DNA of 61,625 bases from the NCBI GenBank assembly GCA_009873635.1, contig WAHY01000013.1, forward strand, positions 1-61,625, written 5' to 3'. Positions 40,734-46,026 of this stretch are shown here, piece by piece. Position 1 is the first letter of the stretch. Each line of letters starts with the position of its first letter. A model generated the notes under the pieces. The model was not told the origin of the DNA. It saw nothing but the letters and a program-made list of their open reading frames with translations, and did not search any database. A program made the translations under genes and the position numbers. Source of the stretch: Nitrospinota bacterium. GTDB lineage: Bacteria > Nitrospinota > Nitrospinia > Nitrospinales > VA-1.

Positions 40734-41183
40734 ATGGCTGACGAGATAACCAAAGAAGAGTTTGCCTGGATATATGAGGTGTTTAAAAAGGTCGAGGTTT
40801 TTACCGGACTGAACTACGCAGAACGGGAAACTTTGATCGAAGAGATGTATAAGCTGAGTTACAAACCTGAAGACAACATCTTTAAAGAAGGGGATGCCCC
40901 CAATGCCTGCTTTTTGATTTATAAGGGTAATGCAAAGGTGATTAAAAACAAAAGGCTGGTTATTAAAAAAGAGGTCACCACTATTGGTCCCGGTTCTTTT
41001 TTTGGGGAAATGGCTTTTCTCACCTACGCGCCTCGCGTCGCTAGGGTGACTGCCGAAACGGACCTGGTTTGTTTCGTTCTACTCAAATCAACGTTTCAAC
41101 GTTTACTGGAAAAAAACTCTGCCTTCAAAAGCTGGCTCGAAACTCTCTCCGCCAAACGCATGGTCAAACTCGATAGCATCTAA
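40734..41183 (+). CDS. Cyclic-nucleotide-binding domain protein (no effector domain)
   Basis: 149 residues, one Crp-like domain: FKKVEVFTGLNYAERETLIEEMY, EDNIFKEGDAPNACFLIYKG, the cassette GPGSFFGEMAFLTYAPRVARVTAETD, then helices. The phosphate-binding Glu and Arg (FGEMA...PRVARV) are present, so cAMP or cGMP binding is plausible. There is no DNA-binding helix-turn-helix, so it would act by protein contact. A second such domain in the window is at the C-terminus of the antiporter at 23386-25863. Confidence 0.85.
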   Translation: MADEITKEEFAWIYEVFKKVEVFTGLNYAERETLIEEMYKLSYKPEDNIFKEGDAPNACFLIYKGNAKVIKNKRLVIKKEVTTIGPGSFFGEMAFLTYAPRVARVTAETDLVCFVLLKSTFQRLLEKNSAFKSWLETLSAKRMVKLDSI

Positions 41184-42564: not shown

Positions 42565-42690
42565 GCCAACGAGCAATAACCCATTTGTGTCAGCAACAGG
42601 TTTACTCGGCTTTAAGAGCAATGCTATCTGCCTCCCCCTGCAAGGCCACCAGGCGCCAGCGTGACGCTGAACCCAAAGAGCAATAACCCA
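42565..42690 (+). repeat. Dispersed intergenic repeat, copy 2
   Basis: Blocks shared with copy 3 at 48590: GCCAAYGAGCMATAACYCATTTGT, AACAGGTTT-CTCGGCTTTAA, TATCTGCCTCCCCC and CCAGCGT. The start block recurs at the end (CCCAAAGAGCAATAACCCATT, about 42671-42691), so copies may be tandem or overlapping units of about 105 bases. Confidence 0.6.
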
Positions 42691-42836
42691 TTAACTGAGG
42701 CAGGAATACTGCCAGATCTGCTACTTTTTTCCCCTCCCTAAAAACTTTTTTCAAAAAAAATCTAAAAAATTATCCTTATTTTTCAATATTTTACAAAAAT
42801 AATAGAACAAATACGCATTTTTTGTTTAATTATCTA

Positions 42837-42864
42837 TTGACAAATCTATAATAGTGTCTAAAAT
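42837..42864 (+). promoter_or_regulatory. Sigma-70-type promoter for the exported-protein/MerR-B12/CbiX-like operon
   Basis: TTGACA (42837-42842), 16 bases, then TAAAAT (42859-42864), a near-consensus pair about 55 bases upstream of ATG 42920. The spacer has a second TATAAT-like string. MerR regulators, including CarH types, bind at or near such spacers; that the neighbouring MerR protein acts here is inference. Confidence 0.55.
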
Positions 42865-42919
42865 TAAACTTATACATAATGTTAACTTTTAATTATAATT
42901 TTAATTAGGAGATTAAAAA

Positions 42920-43618
42920 ATGAAATCACATCGAATTGTTCTCAATATACTGGCAATCACCGCAATGACAATTTTTACCTCAGCCACAGTCATGGCGCAT
43001 TCCAATCGCGATCATTCCAAGGTTCCTTTTAAGTGGGAATTATCTGAAAAGTTGAATTCAAAAATTGAGAGAGATCTCAATTCAAACAATCCATCTGGAT
43101 TTGTAGGATTGAGTCTAACTGAACAGAAAAAGTTTGATAACTACGTAATCAATGTTGGAAATAAATTTGAAGCCAGAGTTCGAAATGTTGATGTGATCTT
43201 CGAGCGAACATCTGGAGGACTGAAAATTGTTGATGCCTCCAAGGCTAAAAAGGAAACAGAGAATGTTGTTCCCATAAGAAATATTTCATCCATCTCAAAA
43301 GTTTCTACTCAAGGGCTTTCTCATATCGGTCACAATCATAAAAGACTTCCTGTTGAATGGAAATTCGGACCTGCTACCAATTCAAAAATCGTAAAACGTA
43401 TGTTTGAAACCAGGGGTAACATTTTTGTTGGCTTGAATCCCATTGAGCAGGACATGTTGAATGATTACAAGGTCAAAGTTGGCAACCGGTTTCAGCTTTC
43501 AATTTCTGGCCACAGTTTTCTTGTTGAAAGAGCTTCTGGCGGGTTAAAAGTCATTAACCATGCTACAAGTTTAGACGTTGTTCAGTTGAACAAAGAAACT
43601 AATGATGACAATATTTAA
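42920..43618 (+). CDS. Exported protein of two tandem homologous domains with His-rich motifs
   Basis: 232 residues. A signal peptide (LNILAITAMTIFTSATVMA) is followed by two homologous units of about 75 residues: the first begins HSNRDHSKVPFKWELSEKLN, the second HIGHNHKRLPVEWKFGPATN. Both contain IxVGLx(L/P)xEQ, a YxxxVGNxF segment and end in (F/V)ERxSGGLKxVx. Each unit is opened by a His-rich string, suggesting metal binding. No known family recognised. AGGAG sits eight bases before the ATG. Next genes are the MerR-B12 regulator (29 bases on) and a CbiX-like chelatase. Confidence 0.8.
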   Translation: MKSHRIVLNILAITAMTIFTSATVMAHSNRDHSKVPFKWELSEKLNSKIERDLNSNNPSGFVGLSLTEQKKFDNYVINVGNKFEARVRNVDVIFERTSGGLKIVDASKAKKETENVVPIRNISSISKVSTQGLSHIGHNHKRLPVEWKFGPATNSKIVKRMFETRGNIFVGLNPIEQDMLNDYKVKVGNRFQLSISGHSFLVERASGGLKVINHATSLDVVQLNKETNDDNI

Positions 43619-43647
43619 TCCTTAGTTCAACAACACAAAGGATCGCA

Positions 43648-44601
43648 ATGACCCAAACAGACAACATGGATAATCTTATTTCAATAGGCGAACTTTCTCG
43701 GCTAACAGGAATAACCACGCATACGTTGAGAGTGTGGGAAAAGCGATACGGCACACCCCTCTCTCAACGATTGCCATCTGGACACCGCCGGTATCCCAAA
43801 GAAGATGTTCCAAGGCTGCGGGCAATCGCTAAAGCCCTGGAGTCGGGGTACCGGGCAAGTAAAGTCGTATCGGGAACCCTGGAAGAATTGCAGGGGCTGT
43901 TGGGTTTGAAAGAGTTTATTGAAACCGGTTCCAGCGTTTCATCAACCGGGGAAAAAGATAGTTCATCCAAAGAAATGACGCTTGAGCGGTGGGTCAAATC
44001 AATTCACGAATACGATGATGACTTCCTTATACATGAATTTCATCAACATTGGAATCGTGTTGGTCCTTTGAAATTTATAGTTGACTTTGCCAGCCCCTTA
44101 ATTGAAAGAGTGGGTATCGGTTGGGAACAAGGAGAGTTGTCTGTATCCCAAGAACATTTCGCAACAGAATGCTTAACCAGTTTTCTCACCAACAAATGGC
44201 GGCAGCTCAACAAGAGAAAAAATGAATGGACCATATTGATGGCAACACTGCCTGGAGAAACGCACAACCTGGGCTTACTCATGAGTTCGGTAGTCGCTAG
44301 CCTCACTCATGCAAAAATAATATATCTGGGTCTTAATAATCCAGTTGAAAGTTTAATTAAGACCGCAAAGAATCATAAACCGCAAATTATTTGCTTGAGT
44401 ATTTCTTGGCTTTTTATAGAGAAGCCGTTAGATACGGAAAATTATCTTATTCGAATAAAAGAAGAATTGGGTAACGATACAAAGATTATTTGTGGAGGTA
44501 AGGGAGCCCCTGATAATTTAACAGGTATTATCAAGCTTAAAGATTTTATTAAATTTAATAATTGGTTGGGAGAATTTGAAAACTCCCTCATTTTAAACTA
44601 A
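43648..44601 (+). CDS. MerR-family regulator with cobalamin-binding domain (CarH/LitR type)
   Basis: 317 residues. Residues 10-80 are a MerR helix-turn-helix (ISIGELSRLTGITTHTLRVWEKRYG, then PSGHRRYPKEDVPRLRAI). Residues about 115-210 are the helical cap with GWEQGELSVSQEH, a W-x9-EH signature. The Rossmann B12 domain has LPGETHNLGLL at about 205-215, that is ExHxxG, whose His ligates cobalt, and LGLNNPVESL. In CarH proteins adenosylcobalamin makes tetramers that repress DNA and light breaks them, so this is a candidate light and B12 sensor. All key residues are present. AAGGA precedes the ATG. It sits between the exported protein and the CbiX-like gene. Confidence 0.9.
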   Translation: MTQTDNMDNLISIGELSRLTGITTHTLRVWEKRYGTPLSQRLPSGHRRYPKEDVPRLRAIAKALESGYRASKVVSGTLEELQGLLGLKEFIETGSSVSSTGEKDSSSKEMTLERWVKSIHEYDDDFLIHEFHQHWNRVGPLKFIVDFASPLIERVGIGWEQGELSVSQEHFATECLTSFLTNKWRQLNKRKNEWTILMATLPGETHNLGLLMSSVVASLTHAKIIYLGLNNPVESLIKTAKNHKPQIICLSISWLFIEKPLDTENYLIRIKEELGNDTKIICGGKGAPDNLTGIIKLKDFIKFNNWLGEFENSLILN

Positions 44602-44616
44602 TGCATGGGGAAAATA

Positions 44617-45150
44617 ATGGAAGCTATAACACAAGCAGTACTTTTAGTTGGACATGGAGGGTTGCCAAAGGACATCCCGCAAGAGATCGTTGAAAATTTT
44701 ATGAGGGTTCATAAACAACGCGTTCGGTCAGGAAATGCGATAACGGCCCAGGAAAAAGAATTGGACTCCACCATTAGAAAGTGGAAGCGAACCCCTGAGT
44801 CCGATCCCTATCAAGCAGGACTTGAAAGTCTAGCCTCACATATGCAGCCATTATTGAGTGATTATATTCTCAAAGTTGCCTACAACGAATTTTGTCACCC
44901 GACTATTGAAGCCGCAGTCGATGAATTGGTTGAGCAGGGTATCACTAAAATAATTCTAGTCACGACCATGATTACGCGGGGAGGATCTCACTCAGAAACT
45001 GAGATCCCTGAAGAAGTCAATGAATTGCGAACGAAATACCCCGCGATCGACTTCCAATATGCCTGGCCTTTCAGCATGGTTTCATTTTCAACATTTTTAT
45101 CGAATCATATCAAAAGTTTTCAACCCAAAGCTGCAGTAAACATCGATTAG
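44617..45150 (+). CDS. CbiX/SirB-like sirohydrochlorin chelatase-family protein
   Basis: 177 residues from ATG 44617 (GGGGA about eight bases upstream); ATG 44605 in the same frame is the alternative. CbiX inserts cobalt, SirB iron, into sirohydrochlorin. Here the chelatase pattern is clear: AVLLVGHGGLP at the start (His 1), CHPTIEAAVDELVEQGITKIILVTTMITRGGSHSETEIPEEV (His 2 in GGSHSETEIP). The middle region (residues 30-75) is longer than in short CbiX. Directly downstream of the B12-binding regulator, so a role in cobalt or tetrapyrrole handling is likely, though the substrate is not proven. Confidence 0.8.
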   Translation: MEAITQAVLLVGHGGLPKDIPQEIVENFMRVHKQRVRSGNAITAQEKELDSTIRKWKRTPESDPYQAGLESLASHMQPLLSDYILKVAYNEFCHPTIEAAVDELVEQGITKIILVTTMITRGGSHSETEIPEEVNELRTKYPAIDFQYAWPFSMVSFSTFLSNHIKSFQPKAAVNID

Positions 45151-45159
45151 AGATTTAAA

Positions 45160-45666
45160 ATGAAAAATCAAAAATATTTATATAAAGGAAGAGATTTTAT
45201 CAAACTTCGAAAAACTGTTGGCAAACTATTGATAGCCACTCTCTTTTCTATTGCCTTGTTATTTTTTTCCAGCATTCATCCTGTTTTTGCCCTTGATTGG
45301 AGCGATAACGAATGGACAAATTGTCCAAAAACAATCGAAGGCACCTGGGTCTCTGAAAAAACAAACCCTGTTAATAATAAAAACCTGAATGTGCGGAGAA
45401 ATACAATAAGCATAACTCAAAAAGATAATGTATTAGCATCTGGAACTGCTTTTGAAAAAAAAGGCAGTTTTTTTGAAATGGTTCTTCAATCCATTGAAAA
45501 CGGAAAAGACACCTATTTTAAAATTCGGCCTCACCTGGTTCAGTCGAACCCGGGAAATAATAATAAATCCGATTGCTGGATCAAGGTATTCCAGTTCAAT
45601 TCTCAGGCACACGCAAAGTTTGACAAATATTCGAATTGGGACATTTATCAATTAAAACCTGATTGA
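45160..45666 (+). CDS. Exported protein of unknown function
   Basis: 168 residues. After a basic n-region of 22 residues there is a hydrophobic core (LLIATLFSIALLFFSS) with cleavage near PVFA. The mature part is a small beta-rich protein with two Cys (NCPKTIEGTWVSEK, DCWIKVFQF), compatible with a lipocalin-like or immunoglobulin-like strand pattern. Ten bases after the CbiX-like gene, so probably the same operon. Confidence 0.6.
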   Translation: MKNQKYLYKGRDFIKLRKTVGKLLIATLFSIALLFFSSIHPVFALDWSDNEWTNCPKTIEGTWVSEKTNPVNNKNLNVRRNTISITQKDNVLASGTAFEKKGSFFEMVLQSIENGKDTYFKIRPHLVQSNPGNNNKSDCWIKVFQFNSQAHAKFDKYSNWDIYQLKPD

Positions 45667-45708
45667 TTAAAGAAGTGACCTGATTCACCTTTTGAAAGAT
45701 ATAGGGCT

Positions 45709-46026
45709 ATGGTTTTTGAATGCAAGATATTTGATAAAAAGGGAAAGCTGAAAAAGGTTTTGCGGGGAAACGAAGCCGTTTCAAAAAAAACTGAAAGCTT
45801 CTTCGAACAAAAATCCACAAAAAAAGCGGCTTCCTTTATAAAAAAGTTAAGGGAACCGCCAAAAGAAAAAAACCATGAGACAAAATTTTATAACAACGTA
45901 TGCGTGGTTTGCGGAAGACAGTTTCACCCACGCCATCCACAATCAAAGTACTGTTCTCATGAATGTCAGAAAAGTTTATATTTAAAAAATAGACGGTTAA
46001 AAAAAGAGAAGCAATCGCAAAAATAA
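45709..46026 (+). CDS. Small zinc-finger-like basic protein
   Basis: 105 residues, strongly basic. The C-terminal half has a four-Cys knuckle (VCVVCGRQFHPRHPQSKYCSHECQ) followed by a lysine/arginine tail (RRLKKEKQSQK). Such a finger is usually nucleic-acid binding. The N-terminus begins ECKIFDKKGKLKK. No family recognised. Confidence 0.65.
   Translation: MVFECKIFDKKGKLKKVLRGNEAVSKKTESFFEQKSTKKAASFIKKLREPPKEKNHETKFYNNVCVVCGRQFHPRHPQSKYCSHECQKSLYLKNRRLKKEKQSQK

Follow-up and report, generated by a model that had tools for sequence, protein, structure and literature searches.

The operon at 42920-46026 of the window, by which we mean the whole 61,625-nt stretch of Nitrospinota DNA that was analysed, is likely to be a light-induced photoprotection unit with a CarH/LitR-type B12 photoreceptor as its repressor. 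Evidence for this reading comes from gene order, the residues of the regulator, an operator-like site over the promoter, the fold and catalytic histidines of a chelatase, and the light-stress genes that accompany the operon's relatives, all of them read from sequence. The promoter, duplicated exported protein, CarH-type regulator and chelatase described in the initial annotation were all recovered, in a unit of five tightly spaced genes instead of the three originally proposed.

Organization and distribution of the operon

The source genome (2.62 Mb, 95% complete) is that of a marine nitrite oxidiser of the Nitrospina family and has Nitrospina and Nitrospinaceae assemblies as its nearest named relatives. 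The promoter, the operator-like sites and the five genes lie on the + strand. The first gene (42920-43618) encodes an exported two-domain protein of 232 aa, the second (43648-44601) a CarH/LitR-type MerR regulator of 317 aa, and the third (44605-45150) a CbiX-like class II chelatase of 181 aa, whose start is perhaps the second Met at 44617, which aligns with the start in relatives. They are followed by a second exported protein (45160-45666, 168 aa), which carries a conserved motif (WxDxxW...CP...GxW...RPHL...C.IKV) and had no match in a Pfam search, and by a 105-aa zinc-ribbon protein (CxxC...C...C; 45709-46026) that is weakly DUF2256-like and conserved in position. These last two genes were assigned to the unit because most of the chelatase-bearing Nitrospinota loci have them in the same place. 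Intergenic gaps are 29, 3, 9 and 42 nt, and the operon ends at a convergent purD.

The exported gene and the CarH gene are adjacent in about 30 loci, which bears out the conservation of gene order that had been named as a check and excludes chance grouping. The order CarH-chelatase-P0004 is conserved as well.

A second copy of the module is present in the same genome (L118, contig C25:22301-23927), where an exported paralogue, 44% identical, is accompanied by a small exported gene and then a CarH gene truncated at the contig end. Two module copies were also seen in genomes G003, G020 and G032. Among same-genus genomes (G001-G015), the exported gene and CarH occur in only 4 of 15, and six other congeners, each at least 92% complete, have neither; this patchy distribution may track light or depth ecotype.

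The CarH/LitR-type regulator

The regulator comprises MerR DNA-binding, B12-binding_2 and B12-binding domains, all above the Pfam cut-off, the latter two being of the four-helix-bundle and Rossmann types, and it aligns with PDB entries 5c8d and 3whp. In alignment with Thermus CarH, the Wx9EH motif is formed by W159, E169 and H170, and ExHxxG includes E204 and H206, and nearly every homologue from Nitrospinota retains these residues. Wx9EH forms a cap over the adenosyl group, and B12-independent CarA lacks it (PMC8156234). The GxxW, EH, GxxH and GxxxP elements that make up the light signature of CarH-type proteins (PMC11796333) are also found, at G156-W159, E169H170, G203-H206 and G228-P232. 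Within the extended pattern ExHx2Gx41SxV/Tx22-27GG, ETHNLG and the 41-residue spacing are present, SIS stands in the place of SxV/T, and 29 residues lead to GG where the literature gives 22-27 (PMC8156234). The 'complete CarH signature' previously assigned to this protein says a little too much: Wx9EH and ExHxxG fit it, with departures at SxV/T and in the run to GG. SxS is common to nearly the whole regulator clade.

Glu160 occupies the position of Thermus CarH His132, and His was found there in 0 of 39 Nitrospinota homologues. In Thermus CarH, His132 becomes the upper cobalt ligand in the light, and an H132A substitution largely blocked monomerisation (PMC10442372); a CarH-like protein with Arg at this position is still light-responsive, so that His132 is not universal (PMC11796333). 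With Glu160 in its place, the exchange of cobalt ligands in the light is probably not the same as in Thermus CarH. Against the NCBIfam CarH equivalog model the regulator scored 105 bits relative to a 400-bit cut-off, which marks it as a distant family member and not as an orthologue of the same name. Taken with the operator-like site over its own promoter, the key residues support in silico the earlier proposal of a light- and B12-responsive regulator.

The lower axial His of ExHxxG is replaced by Tyr in six relatives (L128, L129, L130, L133, L136 and L138) and by Gln in another (L125). Wx9EH is kept in all seven, and an altered mode of cobalamin binding is possible in these proteins, judging from the substitution.

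Operator-like sites at the operon promoter

Upstream of the first gene lies a sigma-70-like promoter, TTGACA-16-TAAAAT (42837-42864), which has 11 of 12 matches and is the best in the region. An operator-like sequence, TTGACA-N12-TGTCTA (42837-42860), spans its -35 hexamer and extends into the -10, an overlap with the promoter that is known for CarH operators (PMC8156234). The N12/N13 spacing is conserved in relatives, and a LitR-box-like site over the promoter is conserved across the order. The site in the window has the same spacing as the consensus for class II LitR, T(G/A)TACA-N12-TGTA(C/T)A (PMC9758184). Two further elements flank it: a degenerate distal LitR-box-like site, AGAACA-N13-TGTTTA (42804-42828), which is weak in the window and appears at the same position in congeners as TAGACA/TATACA-N13-TGTCTA (12/12), and a third half-site, TATACA (42871-42876), 3' of the -10, where (C/T)TTATACAAGG is conserved in congeners.

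Hexamer pairs of the TAKACA/TGTMTA type were scored at spacings of 6 to 19 in 33 regions upstream of the exported gene. Pairs with 11 or 12 of 12 matches occurred in 11 regions at N12 and in 19 at N13, compared with just 0-2 of the 33 at any other spacing, counts that are not independent evidence since the regions come from related genomes. A match of at least 10/12 was reached by 97% of real upstream regions and by 14% of shuffled sequence. A search of the source genome for TTGACA-N11-14-TGTCTA returned six sites, as opposed to one with a reversed control, and only those in the window and at the C25 paralogue precede module genes. Two of the other four (L140 and L143) were inspected and look unrelated; L140 (C2:5931-5955), a TTGACA-N13-TGTCTA sequence between an aminotransferase gene and CobT, is probably due to chance.

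The gap 5' of the operon also contains a direct repeat, GAGCAATAACCCATT, at 42571-42585 and 42678-42692. In most congeners this gap holds a divergent TudS-like gene (c14, 166-167 aa), which is missing here. Farther upstream lies a cNMP-binding gene (40734-41183), whose product was rejected as a candidate LdrP-like co-regulator, as the cNMP domain matched alone, without an HTH.

The CbiX-like chelatase and the tetrapyrrole genes of the genome

The chelatase matched Pfam CbiX at 55.3 bits (cut-off 22) and SirB at 1e-11 by profile, and among PDB entries SirB proteins are closest to it in sequence. Its AlphaFold2 model (pLDDT 91.7) gave CfbA as the best fold match (TM 0.78), followed by ferrochelatases. 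H17 and H129 are invariant in the 25 relatives compared, so that the claim of a chelatase with both catalytic histidines is confirmed by residues, by CbiX family membership and by a predicted class II fold. The variable position of AYNEFC(H/A/D/Y) was tried as the second catalytic His and rejected in favour of the invariant GGSH. The same 25 relatives share the family motifs GHGG, DPY, AYNEFC, GGSHS and YAWP together with a helical insert of about 50 residues; on sequence grounds, the insert and the invariant DPY, AYNEFC and YAWP suggest another substrate or partner.

TP-methylases are represented in the genome by just two genes, CobA-HemD and RsmI, which implies that no corrin ring is synthesized, and a role of the chelatase in cobalt insertion for B12 biosynthesis was rejected for this reason. 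A separate two-domain SirB-like chelatase of 261 aa is encoded elsewhere. The genome search recovered a CobA-type adenosyltransferase and CobT, and no PduO-type adenosyltransferase; with the former two, adenosylcobalamin can be made and B12 salvaged. These findings accord with reports that Nitrospira marina and several strains of Nitrospinae are auxotrophic for B12 (PMC8115632).

The exported HxxHxH protein

The product of the first gene is duplicated internally, as had been noted: its halves are 31% identical (BLASTP E 5e-18, profile-profile E 1e-38) and form two domains of about 90 residues, at approximately 27-120 and 130-225, opened by the HxxHxH-type clusters HSNRDHS and HIGHNH, respectively. 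The signal peptide (residues 1-26) ends in AxA|H, so the mature chain is predicted to begin with His. Relatives share the consensus HSxHDHS...W in domain 1 and HxGHDHxxLPxEW in domain 2, and the clusters resemble metal ligands. In the window copy, the conserved His at position 30 is Arg and there are 7 His in 206 residues; the description 'His-rich' suits the relatives better and was overstated for this copy. In one relative (L126:7798-8589) the first cluster has decayed to AQPNDDRS from AHSNHDHS, and its metal-ligand residues may possibly have been lost.

Searches of Pfam, NCBIfam and the PDB returned no sequence relative of the exported protein. Its AlphaFold2 model is weak (pLDDT 58), with the same predicted order of helices and strands in both halves, and a PDB fold search with it gave no significant match. 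Within the phylum the family was found in 27 of 77 genomes searched, all belonging to the order of the window, and in 0 of the 13 outside that order.

Light-stress genes in related loci

In Nitrospinota loci the pair of exported gene and CarH is constant and the remaining genes vary. They include an SDR with DUF1731 and polyketide-cyclase-like domains (TIGR01777-type), an NmrA-type SDR, an AhpC/TSA protein (peroxiredoxin), a lipocalin, DUF4149 and TudS/RudS, and in congeners TudS is adjacent to the module. RudS takes the photoreactive s4U out of tRNA and has been described as a member of LitR/PhrB light operons (PMC11417400).

A scan of genomes with the chelatase profile yielded 80 loci, mostly from Nitrospirota. 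Counts for the Nitrospirota group refer to the 49 loci with a called chelatase gene, many of them cut by contig ends. Within 10 kb of the chelatase, RudS lies in 40 of the 49, the SDR in 33, and a photolyase in 27, the last at a distance of 1.0-5.9 kb. A divergent CarH with both motifs is located 7-10 kb from the chelatase in five loci. The Nitrospira orthologue sits in a photolyase-RudS-SDR-lipocalin cluster, and in some of the clusters genes for CFA synthase, DUF1365, flavin amine oxidase and DUF1295 come next. The interval that separates CarH from the divergent cluster in Nitrospira contains repeated ACATTGGACA-like units close to TTGACA. These neighbourhoods, from Nitrospinota and Nitrospirota together, indicate that light-damage genes accompany the chelatase in both phyla.

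Photolyase was not found in the Nitrospinota chelatase loci examined. The photolyase/cryptochrome FAD domain was likewise not found in the 95% complete source genome, despite its two CarH modules. The photolyase/chelatase cluster of some Nitrospira loci, among them L187, L204 and L209, opens with FGE-sulfatase (SUMF1-like) paralogues, of which there are often two or three.

Discussion

Under the proposed photoprotection model, the regulator would bind adenosylcobalamin derived from salvaged corrinoid and, in the dark, occupy sites of the TGTCTA/TAGACA type. As these overlap the -35 and -10 of its own operon, transcription would be blocked. Light would cleave the Co-C bond and release the regulator, allowing expression of all five genes, including that of the sensor. 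The chelatase would then metallate a free tetrapyrrole that could otherwise act as a photosensitiser, or draw flux away from it. The closest precedent from experiment is CbiX of Rhodobacter capsulatus, which showed strong induction under photo-oxidative stress and for which a role in limiting porphyrin-type photosensitisers has been proposed (PMC7074977); by analogy, we tentatively regard a photosensitiser-draining role as possible for the enzyme described here. The exported HxxHxH protein would be periplasmic and perhaps bind a transition metal, keeping it from photo-oxidative chemistry, a weak inference.

Other substrates and signals can be considered. Siroheme supply has also been put forward to account for CbiX in R. 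capsulatus (PMC7074977), and a chelatase acting as a second sirohydrochlorin ferrochelatase, which raises siroheme under light stress within an otherwise unchanged photoprotection operon, would suit an enzyme with SirB as its best PDB sequence relatives and CfbA as its best fold relative. The genome's own SirB-like enzyme, and an insert and motifs that suggest a different substrate or partner, argue against this reading, which we judge unlikely. It seems quite unlikely, too, that corrinoid status or a partner protein switches the regulator, with light sensed elsewhere, by another protein as in class II LitR-LOV, or irrelevant. Glu at the light-ligand position, the effect of H132A in Thermus CarH and the loss of the lower axial His in some relatives are compatible with such a switch, but the adenosyl-capping Wx9EH is retained in nearly all homologues and the Arg-containing CarH-like protein responds to light without His132.

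In the initial annotation, a link between corrinoid or light status and the handling of cobalt or iron had been suggested for the operon; the chelatase would insert Co2+ into sirohydrochlorin, and metal would be captured by the exported protein. CbiX family membership, the conserved HxxHxH clusters and a B12-type regulator agree with that idea, and little besides the His clusters favours metal homeostasis. Cobalt-sirohydrochlorin would be a dead end without corrin-ring methylases beyond CobA-HemD, a separate SirB is present, and the neighbours in relatives are light-stress genes and not genes for metal transport or cobalamin. We therefore see no support for the metal- or corrinoid-handling link and consider it very improbable.

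Read as a photoprotection unit, the operon resembles several described systems. CarH of Thermus thermophilus, Bacillus megaterium and Myxococcus xanthus and class I LitR likewise combine MerR and AdoCbl-binding domains and share Wx9EH, ExHx2Gx41 and operator-like sites that overlap the promoter; the system described here differs in having Glu for the light-ligand His, SIS, a longer GG run and no pigment genes alongside. Class II LitR controls phrB, SDR, FAD oxidoreductase and ufaM genes (PMC9758184). The Pseudomonas class II LitR regulon (PplR/PmlR) also pairs a MerR-B12 regulator with light-damage genes and has a TRTACA-N12-type box in common with our operon, and its theme of RudS, SDR and CFA/FAD genes reappears in the Nitrospira clusters. 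In contrast, our regulator carries Wx9EH, a class I motif, the genome has no photolyase, and neither the chelatase nor the exported HxxHxH protein is described as part of that regulon. The chelatase shares its predicted fold and both catalytic histidines with CbiX, SirB and CfbA, and an association with photo-oxidative stress with R. capsulatus CbiX. It differs as a single domain of 181 aa with an additional helical insert and family-specific motifs, under a B12 photoreceptor in a genome that has no cobalamin pathway.

The regulator class and the concept of a LitR/CarH photoprotection regulon are already known. As far as we found, three elements are new: in nitrite oxidisers this chelatase is associated across phyla with photolyase or CarH, the operon opens with an exported HxxHxH protein specific to the order, and Glu occupies the light-ligand site in a clade of CarH proteins; a limited literature search found no paper pairing Nitrospina with CarH. 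A more general proposal, which we regard as rather doubtful, is that nitrite oxidisers of both phyla use a dedicated class II chelatase family for photosensitiser metallation induced by a B12 photoreceptor, in bacteria that are auxotrophic for B12 and prone to photoinhibition, with the periplasmic HxxHxH protein as an additional, order-specific effector induced by light.

Nitrification is subject to photoinhibition, and light is among the factors that decide where in water columns nitrifiers live (PMC9239080). If correct, our reading would provide a specific and testable light-response circuit in Nitrospinaceae and a functional context for a CbiX-like family otherwise annotated by name as part of cobalamin or siroheme synthesis. 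As the circuit would need B12 from neighbours, it would tie light tolerance to the supply of this vitamin. Its main relevance would be to the photoinhibition of nitrite oxidisers.
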